Of a stretch of 22,419 bases of DNA, positions 2,020 through 14,212 are shown in pieces. The notes under the pieces are model-generated. The model did no database searches. It was not told the origin of the DNA and saw nothing but the letters and a program-made list of their open reading frames with translations. Both the position numbers and the translations under genes were made by a program. Each line of letters begins with the position of its first letter. Within the stretch, counting starts at the first letter, position 1. The DNA is from a virus, in the IMG/VR virus record IMGVR_UViG_3300035698_027763, positions 1 through 22,419 of that record. One strand, written 5' to 3'.

Positions 2020-2790
2020 ATGAGAGAAAAAGAAAACTGCCACAAGATCCTGAACGTTTACGCTCTATCTGGTGGATGCCAATATAGCTGTTGCCATTGT
2101 TTCCTTAGACGACAGAAGGCCAGAAAGGAATCTTTCAAGATGGAGTATTCAGGCACCCCACATATCAACCCGGATGAATTGAAGCGGATCTGTGGACATG
2201 GCCGCACGGTAGTAGCAAGCAAGGCGGTTGATTTGTTTGCAGACAATGTACCCGACGAGTTGATCGAAATTGTCTTGGAGAGATGCTGCTCGTATGGAAA
2301 GAACAGATACGTGTTCAAGACTATGAATCCAGAGCGTTTCCAGGATTTCCTATGGCAATTCCCGCCGAAAACAATTCTAGCGACAACCGTTGAAGGGCCG
2401 GATGCGGCCAAATACAGCAAAGCTCCGCTGCCCGCTGCACGATTGATAGGGTTACGCAGGATTGCCGGCATCCTAAAGAATCTTCCCAGGCGGCCACAAC
2501 TTATGGTCTCGGTGGATCCGGTTCTGTCCTGGCCTGCTTGTTCCAGCCTTATACGACAACTGCACAGGACATCACCTGACATCATTGAAGTTGGGGCGAA
2601 TACTGCTCGCTGTAAAGTAGACGAACCGACTGGAATAGATCTAGCGTACCTAATAGGCCATTTCCGGGACATGACAAGCGATGTTCGCCTCAACAACAAT
2701 CTTGAACGAATACTTGGTAAAGATACGTTGAGCAAGCTGCAATCCGGAATCAATTGGAATCTGGTGTTAGCAACGAAAGGAGTACACTGA
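2020..2790 (+). CDS. Radical-SAM protein, DUF5131-like (phage Gp37/Gp68 type)
   Basis: A 256-residue protein. C20-x3-C24-x2-C27 near the N-terminus (after LSGG, with an extra C25) is the radical-SAM signature that binds a 4Fe-4S cluster. Later strands match the general DUF5131/phage Gp37-Gp68 layout: a VFKTMNPERF segment like the family's TK-NPERL, an ILATTVEG segment like its WLG-SVEN, and MVSVDPVL like its SIEPLL. It should therefore cleave S-adenosylmethionine to make a radical, but the substrate is unknown for the family. It has a good SD site (ACAGGAGG) seven bases before the ATG. It is somewhat short for the family. An oxygen-sensitive cluster fits a host living with little oxygen. Radical-SAM membership is firm and the subfamily is moderately so. 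Confidence 0.72.
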   Translation: MREKENCHKILNVYALSGGCQYSCCHCFLRRQKARKESFKMEYSGTPHINPDELKRICGHGRTVVASKAVDLFADNVPDELIEIVLERCCSYGKNRYVFKTMNPERFQDFLWQFPPKTILATTVEGPDAAKYSKAPLPAARLIGLRRIAGILKNLPRRPQLMVSVDPVLSWPACSSLIRQLHRTSPDIIEVGANTARCKVDEPTGIDLAYLIGHFRDMTSDVRLNNNLERILGKDTLSKLQSGINWNLVLATKGVH

Positions 2791-2866
2791 AATGTGTGGC
2801 CCAAAATAATTAACGAATCGATGACTCAGCCTCTGTGCGAATTGCTTCCATGAAAGGAGAGGCCTT

Positions 2867-3352
2867 ATGGCCGAAATTGTACTGACCATAAATACAATAT
2901 GCAAAGCGCTTTCCAGTACAGATCAAGCTACCGATCCAGAGCGGCGCTTGCTACTGGGAACGGCTGCTGTTGAATCGAAGCTTGTCTACAGGCGACAGAT
3001 AGGTGGAGGCCCTGCACGCGGACTTTGGCAGATGGAGCCGGCGACGGCCTTTAGCATTACCCGGTATCTGCACCGCCGGCGACCATGTCTATATCTAAGG
3101 ATATTTGGGTTCTTGATGCCTACCCAGGACCAGATCGCTCAACAACTCGAACACAACGATATCTTAGCGTGCGCGCTGGCCCGGGCACACTATCTGAGAT
3201 TTCCAGAACCAATACCGGTTACACTTGCAGACCAGGCTGCCTACTGGAAGATGCACTACAATACCTACCTTGGCAAAGGCACCGTCGAAAAATACGTAGA
3301 AGCCTGGACGGAATGCCACTGTGACTACTTACTGGAGGAAACCCATGGCTGA
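2867..3352 (+). CDS. Lysozyme-like / transglycosylase-like phage lysis protein
   Basis: A 161-residue protein. LGTAAVESKL places E36 like the catalytic glutamate of lysozyme-fold transglycosylases, and GGGPARGLWQMEP (48-58) matches the conserved Gly-x-x-Q-hydrophobic-x-P segment of that superfamily. LACALARAHYLRFPEPIP and AAYWKMHYNTYLGKGTVEKYVEAW fit a recurring phage protein family of this size. It probably cuts the glycan strands of peptidoglycan, either for lysis or as a virion enzyme. There is no signal peptide, so export would need a holin. The start has AAAGGAGAGG upstream. The stop overlaps the next gene by 8 nt. The gene lies upstream of the terminase rather than at the end of the late genes. 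Confidence 0.68.
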   Translation: MAEIVLTINTICKALSSTDQATDPERRLLLGTAAVESKLVYRRQIGGGPARGLWQMEPATAFSITRYLHRRRPCLYLRIFGFLMPTQDQIAQQLEHNDILACALARAHYLRFPEPIPVTLADQAAYWKMHYNTYLGKGTVEKYVEAWTECHCDYLLEETHG

Positions 3353-3596
3353 AAAGCTACGCTTCAAAGACAAAGCCGATCTTGATAAATTTCTAAAAAA
3401 ACCACAAGAACGAAAAGTCAAAGAAGAGTTTGGTACATCTGCAAGCCTCCTGCTTGGAGTCGGAAAGAAGCTCGACAAGATGGATAAGATTCTTAAACAG
3501 ATCCTCGCACAAAACGATATAATGTTTGCAGATTTCTTGCAAACAAGGGGGTATAAACCAAATGATAAACATGGCAAAAAACCAGATCAACCGTAA
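3345..3596 (+). CDS. Hypothetical charged helical protein
   Basis: An 83-residue, lysine-rich protein. The ATG at 3345 is chosen over an upstream in-frame GTG at 3321 because CTGGAGGAAACCC places an ideal SD before it. Residues about 30-60 (GVGKKLDKMDKILKQILAQ) have heptad-like hydrophobic spacing that could form a short coiled coil, and the C-terminus is polar (NDKHGKKPDQP). No membrane segment is seen. The family is not recognised. Its position right after the lysis enzyme, with overlapping ends, resembles the small spanin or regulatory genes that often accompany phage endolysins, but it lacks a lipobox or membrane anchor, so that role is not supported. Confidence 0.5.
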   Translation: MAEKLRFKDKADLDKFLKKPQERKVKEEFGTSASLLLGVGKKLDKMDKILKQILAQNDIMFADFLQTRGYKPNDKHGKKPDQP

Positions 3597-3801
3597 ATCT
3601 ATGGCGACTTGGTCACAATACAGACCGGTAATCAGTTCTGCCTTTGAGACGTTTACTGTCGAAAGTGGGAGCGTGGTTGCACACTCACCTATTCTTGGTG
3701 GAAAAACACTAAAGGCTGGCAAATCTATGTCTTTTCCAAAAGGAACCGAAGTGCTTTTTATCGCCATAGAGCCATCAGAACTGTCCATGGTGGCTTGCTA
3801 A
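3562..3801 (+). CDS. Hypothetical small beta-rich protein
   Basis: A 79-residue protein overlapping the end of the previous gene by 35 nt. The ATG at 3562 follows AAGGGGGT at fair spacing. ATG codons at 3571 and 3601 are possible alternatives. After a basic N-terminus the protein reads as alternating hydrophobic strands (FETFTVESGSVV, GKTLKAGKSMSF, GTEVLFIAIEP), suggesting a small beta-barrel or cupin-like sheet, but no catalytic motif is visible. The family is not recognised. It is the last gene before the promoter of the packaging module. Confidence 0.45.
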   Translation: MINMAKNQINRKSMATWSQYRPVISSAFETFTVESGSVVAHSPILGGKTLKAGKSMSFPKGTEVLFIAIEPSELSMVAC

Positions 3802-3815
3802 TTCCTAAAGAACGT

Positions 3816-3844
3816 TTGACAAACTCGCTCTTGTATGGTAAACT
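3816..3844 (+). promoter_or_regulatory. Sigma70-type promoter of the packaging/head module
   Basis: TTGACA at 3816-3821 is a perfect -35 box. After 17 bases comes TAAACT at 3839-3844, four of six matches to TATAAT. It lies in the only gap of this region (3802-3865) and reads toward the small terminase gene, whose SD (GGGGGTGAC) begins about 8 bases downstream. Transcripts would start near 3851, giving a very short leader, so initiation may in fact use a slightly different -10 (TATGGT at 3834-3839). It probably drives terminase, portal and the following head genes. Confidence 0.6.
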
Positions 3845-3865
3845 TTCTTATGGGGGTGACAGAAA

Positions 3866-4522
3866 TTGCCAAAGACTGATGTTGCTATAACAGAAGAAGA
3901 AGCTCCTGTTACAAATAATCCACACAAACTCCATATCCCAAGAGTAACAATGATCTGTTCTGACGGCAAGAATCGTACGGAAACGGAGCAGCAAGCATCG
4001 GCGTACTACGTCTGGCGCGCTTCTGGTGGCGTTCCCGGCAAGAAAATCATGGAATTAGTCGCCAAACATCCACGGGTGTCTAGCGGTTGGCGTCAGTGTT
4101 ATAATTGGAAATCACTCTTATGCTGGGAGCGACGCTACAAAGAGGACAAGGTACTGAGCGATGTAGATGTAAGCATGATCCTCTGGAGCGGCCTAAGTAA
4201 TGACAATATGGAGGGCATACTGGATGCAGTCAGAACTCCAGAAGAACTCGCCAAAGATGGCGCCCTCTCTCTGGTAGAATATCGCCAGGTTATTCGACGA
4301 TGCGTGAAGAAATATATCGGCGAGTTAAGTGCAGGGCGTATTAAGATAGAAACCGTATCTGATTTCGAGCGACTACTCAAGCTTGATAGGTATCTTGTAG
4401 ATGGAGAAACCGAAGGCGGCGGGCACACGACACAGATAAACATCATCACAGGCATTCAGCGACCCTATACCAAGGAAGAGACTGTTATCGAGGTGGTAGA
4501 CAGCAAGGAGATACCCCCTTGA
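3866..4522 (+). CDS. terS: Terminase small subunit (probable)
   Basis: A 218-residue protein directly upstream of the large terminase, with a 4-nt overlap. It starts at TTG with GGGGGTGAC seven to eight bases upstream. The N-terminal half contains ASAYYVWRASGG, KKIMELVAKHP and SGWRQCYNWKSLLCWERRYKED, compatible with a helical DNA-binding domain that recognises a packaging site. The C-terminal half is helical and charged, as expected for ring formation. No diagnostic motif exists for this divergent family, so the call relies on position, size and composition. The protein would load phage DNA onto the large subunit for packaging. Confidence 0.6.
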   Translation: MPKTDVAITEEEAPVTNNPHKLHIPRVTMICSDGKNRTETEQQASAYYVWRASGGVPGKKIMELVAKHPRVSSGWRQCYNWKSLLCWERRYKEDKVLSDVDVSMILWSGLSNDNMEGILDAVRTPEELAKDGALSLVEYRQVIRRCVKKYIGELSAGRIKIETVSDFERLLKLDRYLVDGETEGGGHTTQINIITGIQRPYTKEETVIEVVDSKEIPP

Positions 4523-5892
4523 GTATCACCCGTATCGACATGCGAGACGTCTATAAGCCTACACTCAGGCAACAGTCGGGACATTCAGAAAAGGCTATGT
4601 ATATATTGCTGGGTGGCGCAATGGGCGGTGGGAAGAGTGTCTTTCTTACCATGGAGGGATTGCAACTAAGTCTAGACTTCCCTGGTAACCGAGGTTTTAT
4701 TTGTCGCTGGGAGAACAAAACATTCAAGAACACGACATTGCCTACCATGCTGGACTTCTATCCAGACTCAATTATAGAAAGTCACCGAGCCAGCGATCAA
4801 GTATTCAGATTGATAAACGGGTCTGAGATATTGTATGGTGGCCTGAAACCATCAGGAAGCTACAAACCAATCGACCGAATCAAATCAATGAACCTTGGAT
4901 GGTTTGCTATCGACGAAGCCAGTGAGATCCCTGAAGAGTTTTTCCTTGTGTTATGCTCTCGATTGCGGCTCAATATCCCACACATGAAGGTCTGCTACAA
5001 AGGACTACTCAGCTCAAATCCAGAAAGCGGCTGGGTACACACCAGATTTATCGAGAACAAACTCCCTAATCACAAATTTATTCAAGCCCTTGCCAGCGAC
5101 AACCCGCATAACCCTTCTGATTACGAACAGCGCCTACGAGATCTATTCCCGCAAGATTGGATTGACCAGTACGTTGATGGTGGTTGGGACATCGCTCAGA
5201 AAGGCTTATTCGCCTTCCCTTCTATGTGGGTTCGTGCAGCACAATTACGCAATGGCGATTCTGGCCCTCTGACGAATATAGGTATAGATATTGGAGCCGG
5301 CGGTGACCCCAGTATTGGGATAGGTCGTTGGGGAGAGGTCTACCGTGAAGTACACAGAAGTCAATATACAAATACAATGAATACTGTAGCGGACTTGTCT
5401 ATCCTAATGGATACGCTCAAGCCGCCAAGAGCTACGATAGATGTAGTTGGTGTAGGCAAGGGAGTCTATGACCGGCTTAGAGAAAAAGGCTACCCTGTAT
5501 TTCCGTATAATGGCGGCTGGGAAGCGGTTGAACCTGATCGGTTTGCCGACAAGCGTTCCGAAGATCACTGGCATCTGCGAGAACTGCTGGAATTTGGGGA
5601 GCCTACCCTCCCCGATAATACCGAGTTGTTGAGCAAAATGGTCGCAATCCATTACGGAAAAGCCAGAGGCGAAAAAGTAATCAAGGTGGAATCCAAAACC
5701 AAACTGCGCTCTCGTGGTATCTCTTCCCCAAACGTGCTCGATGCAATTACGATGGCCGGGTCGGAAGACTCTATGCAGTTTGAAGTTGAAGGCAGCTTTC
5801 TCACCAATTGGTCTGGAAAGGAAAAGGTCCTGGAGAATGAAGCTAGTAAGGAAAAAAGACGAAGTTATCTCGGAGCTAAAGCGGCAGCTTGA
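4519..5892 (+). CDS. terL: Terminase large subunit (ATPase/nuclease)
   Basis: A 457-residue protein with both terminase domains. GGAMGGGKS (32-40) is the Walker A loop and WFAIDEAS (D132, E133) the Walker B with catalytic Glu. LLSSNPE near 165-169 fits the coupling motif. The RNase H-like nuclease domain shows three well-spaced acidic residues: D257 in GIDIGAGGD, D308 in ATIDVVGVG, and D408 in NVLDAI. It pumps DNA into the prohead through the portal and cuts the concatemer. The start is TTG at 4519, overlapping the TGA of the small subunit as TTGA. An ATG at codon 8 is the alternative. The end overlaps the portal gene by 56 nt. The length suits the Terminase_6/PBSX-like group. Confidence 0.92.
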   Translation: MSITRIDMRDVYKPTLRQQSGHSEKAMYILLGGAMGGGKSVFLTMEGLQLSLDFPGNRGFICRWENKTFKNTTLPTMLDFYPDSIIESHRASDQVFRLINGSEILYGGLKPSGSYKPIDRIKSMNLGWFAIDEASEIPEEFFLVLCSRLRLNIPHMKVCYKGLLSSNPESGWVHTRFIENKLPNHKFIQALASDNPHNPSDYEQRLRDLFPQDWIDQYVDGGWDIAQKGLFAFPSMWVRAAQLRNGDSGPLTNIGIDIGAGGDPSIGIGRWGEVYREVHRSQYTNTMNTVADLSILMDTLKPPRATIDVVGVGKGVYDRLREKGYPVFPYNGGWEAVEPDRFADKRSEDHWHLRELLEFGEPTLPDNTELLSKMVAIHYGKARGEKVIKVESKTKLRSRGISSPNVLDAITMAGSEDSMQFEVEGSFLTNWSGKEKVLENEASKEKRRSYLGAKAAA

Positions 5893-7752: not shown

Positions 7753-9276
7753 ATGCGGATCGAGGACATAACAGCACAAAAACTAGCCGGTATTGATACA
7801 GCAGAATTGCACCACTTACGCCTGCGATGTTTTCAGCTATGGTCAAAAGTCTACATAGACAGCAGGAGAACCTTCGAGAAGTCTATGTCCCGTGAAGATT
7901 TTCTGGCTAAGTACGTATTGCTGAAACGCGAAATGACCAAGAGGGGACTTCCTGTTTTACCAAAAGAACTCGACCGCGTTATAGTCAAGCAAGGCATCTA
8001 CGGCTTAGATGTACCCGCGCTTCCCGATATGGTCCTCGCGCGCGACTACGTGAGTGTTGCTGGCGACTTTGTTAAAAGTCCACGGCTTTCGGCTGGCGTA
8101 GATGTTGTATTCCATGCACATAGTGGCAGCCGGAACGAATTCTTCGAGAAGAAAGTTACTGAGGCGATAAGGAAGCAAATACCAAACAAAGCCTTACACC
8201 TGATCTATTCTGAAAGCGGTCCCGGTTCCGTCAATATCCCCATTTATGATCTGGTTTTACAGCCAAAAGGAGTTACCCGGAAAGCAAAGGGTGTAGTCAT
8301 AATTGCCGAACGGCAAAATGATGAGTTGAATTACCGGCATCTGGATGAATGGGATTCAAACAAGATGGCCGACTACATGGCTGTATCCAAACATCTGGAT
8401 GGCACAACCGTTTTAGAACTTGGCTGTGGTACAGGTCGAGTGCTTAAAAGACTGTCCCGATCAGGATTTACCGTACACGGAATTGACAAAAACATCATTG
8501 CCCGCAAATACTGCATGGCCAATAAAGTGAAATGCATGATGGGGGATTTAGAAAGAGGCACTCTACAGGAACTTGCAAAGGGGAGTGTTGACAATGTGAT
8601 CGGTTTGTACATCCTGGAATTCCTGGACAATCCGGAGTTGACAATATCCGAAGCCATTAGAATCGCAAAATCGAAAGTGATCTTTGTTATTGCTCTAGGA
8701 AGCAACCCGTCTCCAGGACAGAAGCATGTTTTTCAAACCGTCAGTGACTTGGAGAAGTTCTGCGGTAAGTCCAACCCAGGCAACGTAACAGTTGTAGATA
8801 ATGGCAGCACAGCTACAATAATTATCGAGGCCGACCAGGTGGCAGCCGTCTCTAAGACCGACTCCGGACAAAGCTTCTTCTCCGTCACTAAACAGGATGA
8901 GCAGATTGTTACTGGAGTCGTGTATTCCCCAAATGAAGTTGATACTCAGGGAGATTACACAACGTCTGATGAGATCCGTAAGGCTATGCATTACTTCATG
9001 GAACACGCTCAACAATATGGCGTTAACCATGAAGAAAGCTCGATTACTTTTGGTTTTGGGAAGGATCCCATTGGCAAAGTGCTTGAGTGCTACATAGTTC
9101 CAGTAACCTACAAGGCGGTATGCGCCAATGGAAGGACTGTTGAAGTAACGAAGGGGAGTTGGGTGTTGACCACCCGGGTCACTGACAAGGAGGTATGGGC
9201 TAAAATCAAAGCTGGCGAGATCACTGGCTATTCTTTTGGCGGTACCGCCAAGACAATCGCCGGGGCACATATTTGA
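7753..9276 (+). CDS. Fusion: NTase-like region + class I methyltransferase + XkdF-type prohead protease
   Basis: A 507-residue protein with AAGGAGAGG before its ATG. Residues 1-80 are a helical, basic region. Residues about 81-172 (GIYGLDVPALPD, SVAGDF, GVDVVF with D117, IPIYDLVLQP) resemble a degenerate nucleotidyltransferase-like fold. Residues 215-320 are a Rossmann methyltransferase: LELGCGTG at 221-228, acidic D245 in GIDKN, D265 in MMGDL, and a YILEFLDN motif near 286. Residues 378-500 match the XkdF family of serine prohead proteases: VTGVVYSPNEVDTQGDY, H426, then KGSWVLTTRV with candidate nucleophile S469, and IKAGEITGYSFGGT. The frame stops right after this core. The family's usual C-terminal tail appears instead at 9737. 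The XkdF and methyltransferase calls are strong and the NTase call is tentative. Confidence 0.8.
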   Translation: MRIEDITAQKLAGIDTAELHHLRLRCFQLWSKVYIDSRRTFEKSMSREDFLAKYVLLKREMTKRGLPVLPKELDRVIVKQGIYGLDVPALPDMVLARDYVSVAGDFVKSPRLSAGVDVVFHAHSGSRNEFFEKKVTEAIRKQIPNKALHLIYSESGPGSVNIPIYDLVLQPKGVTRKAKGVVIIAERQNDELNYRHLDEWDSNKMADYMAVSKHLDGTTVLELGCGTGRVLKRLSRSGFTVHGIDKNIIARKYCMANKVKCMMGDLERGTLQELAKGSVDNVIGLYILEFLDNPELTISEAIRIAKSKVIFVIALGSNPSPGQKHVFQTVSDLEKFCGKSNPGNVTVVDNGSTATIIIEADQVAAVSKTDSGQSFFSVTKQDEQIVTGVVYSPNEVDTQGDYTTSDEIRKAMHYFMEHAQQYGVNHEESSITFGFGKDPIGKVLECYIVPVTYKAVCANGRTVEVTKGSWVLTTRVTDKEVWAKIKAGEITGYSFGGTAKTIAGAHI

Positions 9277-9306
9277 CAATGCCAAAAAAAGAAGGAGGTG
9301 ATTACC

Positions 9307-9459
9307 ATGGGTACCGAGGAACTTGAAGTGCTGTTGAATTCCCTGTATAAGGAAGATGATGGGGAGGACGAGATCGCTGTTATAGCGTTTCCCTTCCCAC
9401 ATGGGCCGTCGATTCAGTTTGCGTGTTGCGTATATAGCTATTCTGGATATAGCTCATAA
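9307..9459 (+). CDS. Small 50-residue ORF with ideal ribosome binding site
   Basis: A 50-codon ORF whose ATG is preceded by AAGGAGGTGAT, close to a full match to the 16S rRNA anti-SD, with correct spacing. The protein is acidic in its first half (KEDDGEDE), then has a short hydrophobic strand (IAVIAFPF) and a Cys/Tyr/Ser-rich tail (CCVYSYSGYSS). It has no recognisable relatives from memory. It lies in the segment that separates the two apparent halves of the prohead protease and ends five bases before a strong promoter. The SD argues for real translation. Alternatively the SD is a relic or serves coupling with the protease stop 30 bases upstream. Confidence 0.5.
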   Translation: MGTEELEVLLNSLYKEDDGEDEIAVIAFPFPHGPSIQFACCVYSYSGYSS

Positions 9460-9463
9460 AGCC

Positions 9464-9493
9464 TTGACACACAAACAGCTCGTGTTGTATACT
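9464..9493 (+). promoter_or_regulatory. Near-consensus sigma70-type promoter
   Basis: TTGACA at 9464-9469 (perfect) and TATACT at 9488-9493 (five of six) are separated by 18 bases. This is the best promoter match in the window. Transcription would begin near 9500. What follows is not a gene start but a structured segment of about 200 nt ending in an intrinsic terminator, so it should produce a short RNA, or a longer one reading into the scaffold and capsid genes if the terminator is bypassed. Confidence 0.75.
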
Positions 9494-9539
9494 TAGCACA
9501 TACACAATACAACACCTGAACGACGACAGAACTAGAATC

Positions 9540-9573
9540 GTGGTAGGCTTGAGTATGTGGTAGGCTTGAGTAT
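9540..9573 (+). repeat. Perfect 17-nt tandem repeat
   Basis: Two adjacent identical copies of a 17-base unit, GTGGTAGGCTTGAGTAT, at 9540-9556 and 9557-9573. Each copy carries the half that forms the 12-bp stem (GTGGTAG pairs with CTACCAC at 9593-9599) and the half that can pair with the terminator arm (GCTTGAGTAT). Duplication therefore gives the RNA two equivalent choices for each pairing. Confidence 0.9.
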
Positions 9574-9630
9574 CATGTAAACTCTCTCAAATCTACCACG
9601 ATTCCACGTAAGTTTAGCTAGTTGAGATCT

Positions 9631-9701
9631 AAAAGATTAGATGCTCAAGCTAATGTCTAAGATTACATTGACATTGGCTGGAGCATCCGATCTTTTTTTT
9701 T
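9631..9701 (+). terminator. Strong intrinsic terminator
   Basis: A long hairpin followed by nine Ts (9693-9701). The outer stem pairs 9633-9646 with 9681-9694 (14 positions with one mismatch and one GU). After a single A/G mismatch, the inner stem pairs 9648-9657 with 9670-9679 (10 positions, one GU), with a 12-base loop. It should stop transcripts from the promoter at 9464 and also those coming from the upstream head genes, unless bypassed. Confidence 0.85.
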
Positions 9702-9736
9702 GGATTGCTCCATAAATTAAAAATTGGGTACTTACA

Positions 9737-10564
9737 ATGACATTAGACGAAACGCTACTGTTAATAAGAAAAGCCAGGAAGCTTCTTGATATAGAGGTGA
9801 ATGAGGTGTCTCTCGTCTCTTCACCTGCAACACGCAAGACGTTCCTCATCGTTAAAAGCGATAGTGCTCATGGAGGCACAAATAAAATGAATAAAGAACT
9901 GGTTGAACTATTGAAGAATCTGATTGGGGAAGACCTCGATACTGACCTAGATGCCGTTCTGAAGGGCGGAGATCCTGCTCAGGTCATCACACCCCTCATG
10001 ACTGCCTTGAAGGTGCTGGCTGGATACACAGATTCCGTACCTGATGACTTGCGAAAGTCCATGGTGGTCCTGGCGAAATATGCCGTATCTGGATACGGTA
10101 TGCCTGCACCGGAGAAATCTGCTGGTTTCACGCTGGATGATTTGGAGAAGGCTGGAAAGAAAGTCTCCAAAGACACGATAACCCAAATCGGCGAAGGGAT
10201 CAAAGCCATTTTCTCTGGAGTCAAGACACTGAACGACATTCTCCCTGAAGATAGCAGGATAACCAAGCAGGAAGATGTTCTTACCCCTGAAGCCCAGGTG
10301 CAGAAGACTCTTACTGGCGCTGTCGAAGCTCTACAGATTCAGATTACCACTCTTGAAGCTGACCTCAAGAAAGCAAAGAGTGGGGCTGAAGATGATACCG
10401 ATCCGGATCCACCAGATCCTGATCCAGCAACAAAAGCTCTTGCAGACAGACTTGCCGCGCTCGAGAAAGCAACTGCTGTCAAGAAAAGTATAGACGGTGA
10501 AGACATTCAGGACGATAAGTCCAATAAGGACTGGTGGCCCTCACTGGGACTTCCAGCCGAATAG
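9737..10564 (+). CDS. Prohead protease C-terminal tail fused to scaffold-like protein
   Basis: A 275-residue protein. Residues 15-42 (LLDIEVNEVSLVSSPATRKTF, then LIVKS) match the C-terminal tail of XkdF-type prohead proteases, which normally follows the GYSFGGT strand that ends the gene at 9276. Residues 51-275 are acidic, helical and low in aromatics, with a DPDPPDPDP linker near 225 and a heptad-like helix after it (LADRLAALEKA), as in capsid scaffolds. The ATG at 9737 has no good SD. An in-frame ATG at 9887 has TGGAGG about 10 bases upstream and would make a clean scaffold protein, so two products are possible. It lies just before the major capsid gene, the usual scaffold position. Confidence 0.65.
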   Translation: MTLDETLLLIRKARKLLDIEVNEVSLVSSPATRKTFLIVKSDSAHGGTNKMNKELVELLKNLIGEDLDTDLDAVLKGGDPAQVITPLMTALKVLAGYTDSVPDDLRKSMVVLAKYAVSGYGMPAPEKSAGFTLDDLEKAGKKVSKDTITQIGEGIKAIFSGVKTLNDILPEDSRITKQEDVLTPEAQVQKTLTGAVEALQIQITTLEADLKKAKSGAEDDTDPDPPDPDPATKALADRLAALEKATAVKKSIDGEDIQDDKSNKDWWPSLGLPAE

Positions 10565-11753: not shown

Positions 11754-12050
11754 ATGACAACATGGAACATTTATAATCACGGTGCCACTCAGATAATCCC
11801 CTCTAGCGTGGGTGCTGTCACCCTGTTGGGAAACGACATGGTGTCCTCCGACGATCCGGAGCTTGTTGAATACTTACGTAAATTCCCCGGGATAGAAGTA
11901 AAGGAGTTCATTCCTGATCCTCGGGAGAAGATGCACGTAAGAGACCTTATCAGCATAGCTTCAAAGAAAGGTCTTCCCGGATTGTTTGGATCGTCCAAAG
12001 CTAAGGTGCTTACACTGTTGCGGCGTCATGACAAAAACGATAAGGAGTGA
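11754..12050 (+). CDS. Small virion-module protein with SAP/Rho-N-like C-terminus
   Basis: A 98-residue protein 13 bases after the capsid stop. AGGG lies about 10 bases before the ATG. A TTG at 11748 is the alternative start. The N-terminal half is beta-like (NHGATQIIPSSVGAVTLLGNDMV). The C-terminal segment HVRDLISIASKKGLPGLFGSSKAKVLTLLRRHD has the helix-extended-helix form of SAP, HeH or Rho-N-terminal domains (Leu-x-x-Ile-Ala-x-x-x-Gly-Leu...Lys-x-x-Leu-x-x-Leu), often seen in small proteins next to phage capsid genes. It could be a head-completion or capsid-associated protein. The function is inferred from context. Confidence 0.55.
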   Translation: MTTWNIYNHGATQIIPSSVGAVTLLGNDMVSSDDPELVEYLRKFPGIEVKEFIPDPREKMHVRDLISIASKKGLPGLFGSSKAKVLTLLRRHDKNDKE

Positions 12051-12055
12051 TACAA

Positions 12056-14212
12056 ATGTCTGCTGTAGATATAGTCACTAGCCTAAAGGAAGGTCGTATC
12101 AGCATAGGTCTTGCCAAGATGCTGTACGATGCTTTCAATGACGGCTTTGACAACGACATAAGACTTGCATATGGCAACAAAATCGTCTTGGAAGATACAA
12201 ATGGGACTGACGTTGAGATATACGTCGCTGGCTCAGTGCTGGTCATTCCCGTAACGTCAGCCACCACAACTGCTGATTCCGTGGCTTGGGGCTTTGGCTC
12301 CGGCACGGATGTCACCTTTACTTTTGATGGGGTGGACACATTGGACATCCTTTGCCCCGTGGCGGATGATACTGTAATCGCCTGGGGCGATGGTACGAAT
12401 AGTTTCGACCAGATATTCTACTTTGAGACTGCGGGCCACCTCGTAACCTTTGACGCCAGTGCAAATTTCATCTACATCAATGGCGTTGATCTGAATTTGA
12501 TGGATAGCGACTTTCTGTACTTTGGCGATGCCTGGGATGTGCAGATCCGGTGGGATGGCACCGACCTCGACATCCTGGCACTTGCCGATGATTCAGTAAT
12601 CAAATTCGGAGATGGCACGGAGAGCTTCGACATCTGGATCTACGGTGAATCCGCCAGCGACAACATCATCTTTGATGCTTCTGGCAAGATCCTGAATTTC
12701 GATGGTATCGACGTTCAATTGGAAGATGACGACATACTGTCCTTCGGAGACTCCAAAGACGTAACCATTACTTGGGCAGCCGGTGGTGGATTGAATATAA
12801 CCTGCGCTGCTGATAACACTGTAGTTACCTGGGGCGCTACAGGCAATTCATTCGACATGGTTTGGTATGGCAGCACTTCTGCCATAACCATGACTGTCGA
12901 CACTTCAGAAAACATACTGACCTTTAACGGTATGGACATATATCTCGATGATGCTGATAATATCAGCTTCGGAGACGATCAGGATGCCATACTCCAGTGG
13001 GATGCTACAATCCTAAGTCTGCTTGCTGCCGCAGATGATTCAGTGTTCAAGATTGGCGATGGTACGGAAAGCTGGGATATCTGGATCTACGGTGAGACTG
13101 CCGATGACAACATCATCTTCAAGGCTTCTAGCAAGATCATGCAATTTGACGGCATTGATCTTATGCTTGAAGATGATGACATTCTCAACTTTGGAAACGT
13201 CAAAGACGTTGGTATTACTTGGGCAGCCAGTGGTGGATTGAATATAACCTGCGCCGCAGACAACACAGTCATTACCTGGGGAGCGGAAGGCAACTCATTC
13301 GACACAATATGGCGTCTTTCCACCGCGGCCACGACAATCACCATTGACGCTTCGGAAGACACCATCACGATGGATGATGTCGATATGTATTTTGGTGATA
13401 ATGACAACATCAGTTTTGGCGATTCGCAGGATTTTGTTCTGCAATTCACCACGAAGCTGACGTTGACCACCGGCACTGATGACTTGGTGTTTGAAATTGG
13501 CAACGGTACGAACTCCATTGACGTTACTGTGTTTGGTAACACAGCAAGCGACTCCATCAAATTCGACGCTTCTGGTAATGTCATGACCTTTAACGGCATA
13601 GACCTGTATTTTGATGACGCCGATGTGCTTGCCTTTGGTGATGACCAGGATGTAACCGTGACCTTCGATGGCACCAGCCTAATCGTAACTGCTGCCGCCG
13701 ACGATGCTGTAATCGAGATCGGCGACTCTGCCGTAACGCAAAAGTCGTTTGACGTGAAAATCTATGGCGATGCTGCTAACGGCGCTGATTACTTCCTGTT
13801 CGACGCTGGAGCATCCGCGCTGAGTTGGGCGGGTGCCGCCAACCTAGCACTGAGCACGTACACGCACAACAAGATCACGGCCAAGACCGCTGACTATACA
13901 GTCGTCGCTGCCGATACTGGCACGATCTTTACCACTGTTGGAAGTGGGGTGGATGTGGAGTTCACGCTTCCCACCGAAGCCGCAGGACTGGTTTACGAAT
14001 TCTACATGGCGGTAGATTTCGAGTTGAAGGTTACTTCCGCAACGGGTAACAATATCATCGGATATAATGATGCTGCCGCAAGCAGCATCGTCTTCACCAC
14101 TGCAACCGAACACATCGGCGCATGGGTCAAAGTGGTCTGTGACGGAACTTACTGGCTCTGTACTTACTCCGGCGGCGGAACTGGCACGGAATACACGATG
14201 TCTTTCGCATAG
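12056..14212 (+). CDS. Large repetitive virion surface / capsid decoration protein
   Basis: A 718-residue protein with an ideal SD (TAAGGAG) 8 bases before ATG 12056. After a short helical N-terminus, residues about 85-593 form seven repeats of about 75 residues. Each unit runs D-V-x-I-x-W, then AADDSVIxxGDGTxSFDIWIYG, then DNIIFDASGxILxFDGIDL, then a D-rich turn ending FGD. The Asp-rich loops may bind calcium. Residues 601-718 form a different C-terminal domain (KTADYTVVAADTGTIFTT, then EFTLPTEAAGLVYEF and WVKVVCDGTYWLC) of a kind common at the ends of phage surface proteins. The position directly after the capsid genes suggests a decoration or capsid-fibre protein. No enzyme motif is present. 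Confidence 0.65.
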   Translation: MSAVDIVTSLKEGRISIGLAKMLYDAFNDGFDNDIRLAYGNKIVLEDTNGTDVEIYVAGSVLVIPVTSATTTADSVAWGFGSGTDVTFTFDGVDTLDILCPVADDTVIAWGDGTNSFDQIFYFETAGHLVTFDASANFIYINGVDLNLMDSDFLYFGDAWDVQIRWDGTDLDILALADDSVIKFGDGTESFDIWIYGESASDNIIFDASGKILNFDGIDVQLEDDDILSFGDSKDVTITWAAGGGLNITCAADNTVVTWGATGNSFDMVWYGSTSAITMTVDTSENILTFNGMDIYLDDADNISFGDDQDAILQWDATILSLLAAADDSVFKIGDGTESWDIWIYGETADDNIIFKASSKIMQFDGIDLMLEDDDILNFGNVKDVGITWAASGGLNITCAADNTVITWGAEGNSFDTIWRLSTAATTITIDASEDTITMDDVDMYFGDNDNISFGDSQDFVLQFTTKLTLTTGTDDLVFEIGNGTNSIDVTVFGNTASDSIKFDASGNVMTFNGIDLYFDDADVLAFGDDQDVTVTFDGTSLIVTAAADDAVIEIGDSAVTQKSFDVKIYGDAANGADYFLFDAGASALSWAGAANLALSTYTHNKITAKTADYTVVAADTGTIFTTVGSGVDVEFTLPTEAAGLVYEFYMAVDFELKVTSATGNNIIGYNDAAASSIVFTTATEHIGAWVKVVCDGTYWLCTYSGGGTGTEYTMSFA
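12308..13834 (+). repeat. Seven-unit coding repeat of about 75 codons
   Basis: The repeat units begin near residues 85, 161, 235, 310, 384, 459 and 532 of the 718-residue protein, spaced 73-76 residues. Units 3 and 5 share almost identical DNA: a stretch starting at 12770 recurs at 13217 (447 bases apart) with the same GGTGGATTGAATATAACC core and only scattered changes nearby. Units 2 and 4 are also similar. This indicates that a two-unit block was duplicated more recently than the rest. Confidence 0.8.

Follow-up and report, generated by a model that had tools for sequence, protein, structure and literature searches.

The segment at 9277-9736, between the prohead protease and scaffold genes of this virus, appears to comprise the promoter and an attenuator-type leader of the scaffold-capsid operon, a reading to which we assign a probability of roughly 0.55 from sequence comparison. 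That the segment belongs to a conserved intergenic unit, made up of a promoter and a structured RNA, is very probable given its recurrence among related viruses. The sequence analysed, hereafter the window, is an IMG/VR virus record in full, 22,419 bases long. The features of the junction and of its two flanking genes are as follows:

7753-9276, + strand: upstream gene, a methyltransferase domain fused to an XkdF-type prohead protease core (Pfam PF14550, Methyltransf_11)
9292-9302, + strand: AAGGAGGTGAT, ideal Shine-Dalgarno of a small ORF (from the sequence)
9307-9459, + strand: 50-aa ORF upstream of the promoter, candidate cargo or spurious
9464-9493, + strand: sigma-70 type promoter, TTGACA-18-TATACT (from the sequence, and at the same position in relatives)
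9482-9515, no strand: perfect 9-bp dyad GTGTTGTAT-N16-ATACAACAC across the -10 box and start site, a candidate operator (from the sequence)
9535-9604, + strand: first hairpin, H1, with two tandem copies of GTGGTAGGCTTGAGTAT (from folding)
9540-9573, + strand: candidates for segment 1, a tandem 17-nt repeat in which GCTTGAGTAT(C) can pair with segment 2
9621-9631, + strand: alternative candidate partner of segment 2, UUGAGAUCUA, adjoining H2 (from folds)
9631-9696, + strand: terminator hairpin H2, segments 2 and 3 (from folding; ranked first in the window by models R1 and R2)
9640-9657, + strand: segment 2, the 5' arm of H2
9670-9688, + strand: segment 3, the 3' arm of H2
9693-9701, + strand: nine-T run of the intrinsic terminator (from the sequence)
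9702-9711, + strand: segment 4, GGATTGCTCC, 3' of the T run, able to pair with GGAGCATCC of segment 3
9737-10564, + strand: downstream gene, EVSLVSSPA motif and scaffold (phrog_3017 positions 256-396)

A promoter-RNA unit recurs at the protease-scaffold junction

Two scans with capsid alignments were used to gather relatives of the locus; both the protease core and the motif-plus-scaffold part were present in 135 loci, or 95 after de-duplication. The protease-scaffold gap in these 95 loci is bimodal: it measures 5-58 nt in 31 and at least 164 nt in 64, with none between. When a promoter was defined by at least 10 of the 12 consensus bases, the long gaps were found to hold 2.19 promoters per kb as against 0.128 per kb elsewhere in the same loci, a 17 times greater density, and a promoter on the coding strand was present in 34 of the 64 long-gap loci versus a single one of the 31 short-gap loci over the same stretch. 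In an earlier set of 29 gaps a promoter was present in 19, where shuffles predicted 2.1, and in three on the opposite strand. Commonly the promoter lies 140-300 nt 5' of the scaffold gene, any extra genes being upstream of it, and that of the window, described in the initial annotation as near-consensus, indeed matches at 11 of the 12 positions. Between the promoter and the adjacent scaffold gene, the leaders fold with a mean z of -2.57 (n=64), 59% falling below -2, compared with -0.46 and 5% for coding windows of the same loci; the corresponding stretch of the short-gap loci is intermediate at -1.30. The initial annotation had suggested a regulatory cassette as one of its readings, and this fits the presence of a promoter, structured RNA and terminator at the same position in many relatives.

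The segment itself matched nothing by DNA similarity among phage and plasmid records. A first scan of host genomes likewise yielded no match, and a second only two MAG contigs, from Thermoplasmatota and Aminicenantes.

A conserved hairpin with competing partners

The 64 units form 36 clusters with no obvious DNA similarity between them; despite this divergence a 3' hairpin recurs, often together with a T run, which reads GGCGUUCAAGACUU...AAGUCUUGGAUGCC in one group and GAUGCUUAAGCUU...AAGUUUGGGCAUC in low-GC members. In 17 aligned hairpins, excluding that of the window, 90.7% of the cells of pairing 2:3 are paired as against 73.9% upon shuffling, and sliding the pairing by one column lowers this to 49-55%. 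The same alignment contains 50 double changes versus 16.0+-3.2 in shuffled versions, none of 500 being as high, though these counts are inflated by related rows. Alignments were made with MAFFT and the covariance models were built with shortened calibration; a MAFFT alignment of the low-GC hairpins was misregistered and entered no model. The resulting model recovered further members outside its training set, nearly all of them at the junction and on the + strand, had no match in 29 short-gap loci, and in 28 other phage loci gave only weak matches (E 2.6 or worse). Most members score higher on the + than on the - strand (e.g. L138, 46.8 vs 23.5 bits; L108 is an exception), as expected for an RNA with G-U pairs. 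Two leaders were seen to carry two family hairpins in tandem (L116:1293-1338 and 1391-1435; L117:4509-4554 and 4614-4665).

The predicted fold of the window RNA has an energy of -72 kcal/mol (z -6.8; none of 200 shuffles is as low), and the terminator is a 27-bp imperfect hairpin followed by nine T, ending at 9701, so that the structured RNA and intrinsic terminator proposed from the bare sequence are both borne out. R1 and R2, built without the window, rank 9638-9689 on the + strand first within it, albeit weakly (12.4 and 14.0 bits; E 0.37 and 0.12); L040, the nearest relative of the window, is matched with E 0.0037, and a GATTAC in the hairpin loop is common to the window, L040 and L042. 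H2 is a probable member of the conserved family, to judge from its fold and its placement by the models. Scans of the window and of 16 relatives against Rfam found no family that reached its gathering score, and permissive scans nothing near it.

Upstream of the hairpin the leaders contain a further segment, 1, with the consensus AGUUUGAAGCC, that is complementary to the 5' arm of the hairpin. Across 20 aligned leaders 87.9% of the cells of this pairing 1:2 are paired versus 75.0% in shuffles and 30-52% in slid versions; it shows 51 double changes against 13.7+-3.2, with none of 1000 shuffles as high, a count again inflated by related rows. As the rows are related the covariation figures are not to be read as probabilities; the drop seen when the pairings are slid is the more reliable guide. 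Pairings 1:2 and 2:3 are mutually exclusive because both use the same bases. A segment downstream of the hairpin, GGGGAUUCAAG, can in turn pair with its 3' arm (3:4). Duplex energies over 30 loci give a Stouffer Z of -5.8 for 1:2 and -8.6 for 3:4, and the covariation of 3:4 is modest (12 vs 5.4, with the row L165 misanchored on segment 3); support for 3:4 is modest, and weaker than for 1:2 and 2:3.

For the window these pairings represent pairing potential, with the covariation support lying at the level of the family. Its 1:2 duplex, formed with the tandem repeat, reaches -20.8 kcal/mol (z -4.75), far stronger than shuffles, and pairing 3:4, with segment 4 as GGAUUGCUCC, has a z of -2.3 (p 0.03). 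Folding predicts H1 to be so stable that segment 1 would normally be hidden, and UUGAGAUCUA pairs with segment 2 in folds of transcripts ending at 9650-9670; segment 1 of the window may be either the 17-nt tandem repeat in H1 or UUGAGAUCUA. A search of viral contigs for the tandem-repeat 15-mer pattern returned 25 matches, which is the chance level, and nothing alike beyond the repeat.

A putative attenuator ahead of the scaffold and capsid genes

Comparison of the loci brings out the promoter, the hairpin and the competing pairings, and from these we infer an attenuator-like working of the RNA. The promoter, perhaps controlled via the dyad over its start, would make the leader. Formation of 2:3 would stop transcription and release an RNA of about 200 nt, leaving scaffold and capsid silent or supplied solely by transcripts that read through from upstream; capture of segment 2 by segment 1 would let the polymerase continue into both genes. 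Termination is not universal among the members, as a T run is found by an automatic test in about a third of the long-gap relatives (22/64, the window having one). In members without it, the same switch probably acts on translation, via ribosome binding, or on Rho.

The arrangement resembles trp-type attenuators and leader switches in having a promoter, mutually exclusive pairings (1:2, 2:3, 3:4) and a terminator hairpin before the first regulated gene. It differs from them in that the unit is embedded among phage head genes, many members lack the T run and the window RNA has no evident leader peptide: no ORF with a ribosome-binding site occurs between 9500 and 9640 in the window sequence, and the only ATGs in the RNA read ATG TGG TAG and ATG TAA. 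In the late leader of lambda (pR'-6S RNA-tR'), which is subject to Q antitermination, a strong promoter gives rise to an RNA of about 200 nt and a terminator precedes the late genes. The window shows the same order, but the unit has a conserved, covarying structure and precedes scaffold and capsid rather than lysis genes, and no antiterminator gene was identified. T-boxes, riboswitches, group I/II introns and other Rfam families are likewise structured leader or intervening RNAs.

The main rival to the attenuator is that the terminator releases an independent small RNA of the phage, which would act in trans, either on targets of host or phage or in virion assembly, and for which the site upstream of scaffold would be no more than a safe harbor. 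A strong promoter with its own terminator would suit such an RNA, and so would the high stability of the fold seen in the window and among relatives of low GC content. However, in the approximately two thirds of the relatives that have no T run it would run into the scaffold gene, the unit stays next to scaffold also in loci with cargo genes inserted 5' of the promoter, and the covarying competing pairings are better suited to a switch in cis; we consider this alternative unlikely. It is more doubtful still that the unit is a plain promoter and terminator that shields the capsid genes and starts their transcription anew, with no switching by the RNA. These are the two parts that recur most, but the 5' arm of the hairpin has a covarying alternative partner, which a terminator does not need, and the hairpin is retained in members without a T run.

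Inheritance of the unit and cargo at the junction

The long-gap state can be placed on a capsid tree with 93 rows by 5 changes, as opposed to 24.8 when shuffled, and the window groups at 99-100% support with its three nearest relatives there, L040, L042 and L089, all of which carry a unit at the same place. Because the trait follows the capsid tree, the unit is old rather than a recent insertion, and to judge from these sequences it has mostly been inherited vertically, with few losses or gains. This largely refutes the proposal that the segment is a mobile moron-like cassette inserted at the junction, which we now regard as very improbable, even though the unit is missing from 31 of the 95 relatives, the junction collects cargo genes (including an HNH-like gene) in other loci and the 50-aa ORF has no detectable homolog. 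The initial annotation had seen no clear terminal repeats: the only ones found are the A/T-rich arms at 9277-9290 and 9694-9707, which are unconvincing.

The 50-aa ORF noted earlier does lie behind its ideal Shine-Dalgarno sequence, and the extra 180 nt that contain it, 5' of the promoter, are the only part that could be moron-like cargo. Its likeness to the scaffold start, suggestive by eye, was equalled by 107 of 2000 shuffles and is not claimed. Varied cargo ORFs occupy the junction in other loci, mostly 5' of the promoter (L098:2548-3201, L115:4605-4913, L101 and L102); by eye, one of their products resembles a sulfotransferase and another a protein with a cysteine cluster. In L057 an ORF that resembles an HNH endonuclease by eye (1004-1627) interrupts the motif at the scaffold start, the scaffold resuming at 1666.

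We also consider it highly improbable that the palindromes are read by a protein as a DNA-level element, either an operator or a recombination site: the 9-bp dyad over the promoter and repeated TTCAAG/CTTGAA motifs might be so interpreted, but G-U pairs are kept on one strand, and model scores on the + strand are well above those on the - strand. Dyads in the promoter spacer (CAAAG..CTTTG, CAAAT..ATTTG), which differ from the window dyad at 9482-9515, are seen in L140, L144, L145, L147, L149, L151, L154 and L155; their arms seem to change together in this group, making an operator possible there.

The protease and scaffold are separate genes

The initial annotation had taken the segment to split the protease gene, with the EVSLVSSPA motif as a displaced C-terminal tail. 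The protease ORF does end at 9276 as it stated, and contains an XkdF match (PF14550, E 8.7e-32) and a match to phrog_3017 at 47-155; this 3' end, at GGTAKTIAGAHI in the GGTA region, is a natural one, since homologs stop at the same place. The gene at 9737-10564 has the EVSLVSSPATRKTF motif first and scaffold after it, and in none of the 135 loci (95 non-redundant) do the protease core and the motif plus scaffold form one ORF. An insertion into the gene is thereby refuted by the very observation that the initial annotation had named as arguing against it. Moreover, XkdF from cultured phages of Bacillus and Lactococcus carries the supposed tail motif, HVSYVDKAANQKKFF, at its N-terminus, ahead of the core. 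The one-base frame shift and the 3n+1 length that splicing would call for are consequently without meaning, and a spliced or translationally bypassed insertion, suggested by two ORFs 460 nt apart in different frames, is refuted by the separate genes of all relatives, the N-terminal motif of cultured XkdF and the lack of any Rfam intron. What looked like a broken gene is hence a normal gene boundary.

The protease core and a VSxVDxxANxKxFF motif are common to the window and XkdF of PBSX-like phages. In the latter motif, core and scaffold belong to one protein, whereas in the window the core is in its own upstream gene and the motif opens the scaffold gene. This rearranged XkdF (8869-9276 and 9737-9868 in the window), with the core fused to a methyltransferase upstream and the motif of the cultured N-terminus beginning the scaffold gene, was likewise seen in L002, L003, L004, L035, L038 and L039. 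In L002 the homologous fusion protein (2283-5339) runs to 1018 aa and includes, between its methyltransferase and protease parts, a long additional stretch that looks by eye like ligase-like domains. Inside the scaffold gene of the window a second start, at 9887, is served by a GGAGG ribosome-binding site of its own (9872-9889), and comparable internal starts occur in L002 (~5845-5862) and L035, the three reading MNKELVELL, MDDELAKLL and MNEDIKKQL. By analogy with Nu3 of lambda, this suggests a shorter scaffold product. Elsewhere in the window, a large ORF (12047-14212) contains a 300-nt direct repeat, 74% identical (12546-12845 and 12993-13292), and the ORF at 2020-2790 has a weak DUF5131 similarity (E 8.9e-5) that falls under the cut-off.

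Implications for head assembly

Of the 95 non-redundant loci from related viruses, 64 have the long promoter-RNA gap; its RNA is absent from Rfam, and open-literature searches found no description of such a leader. Phages have to produce plenty of scaffold and capsid, in balance with each other and when they are needed. We tentatively propose, as a possibility somewhat short of even odds, that the unit is an ancient RNA switch of many uncultivated tailed phages, which times or balances the synthesis of scaffold and capsid and perhaps senses an assembly protein. If this is true, a conserved RNA switch driven by a dedicated promoter at precisely this junction would constitute a direct and testable control of head assembly.
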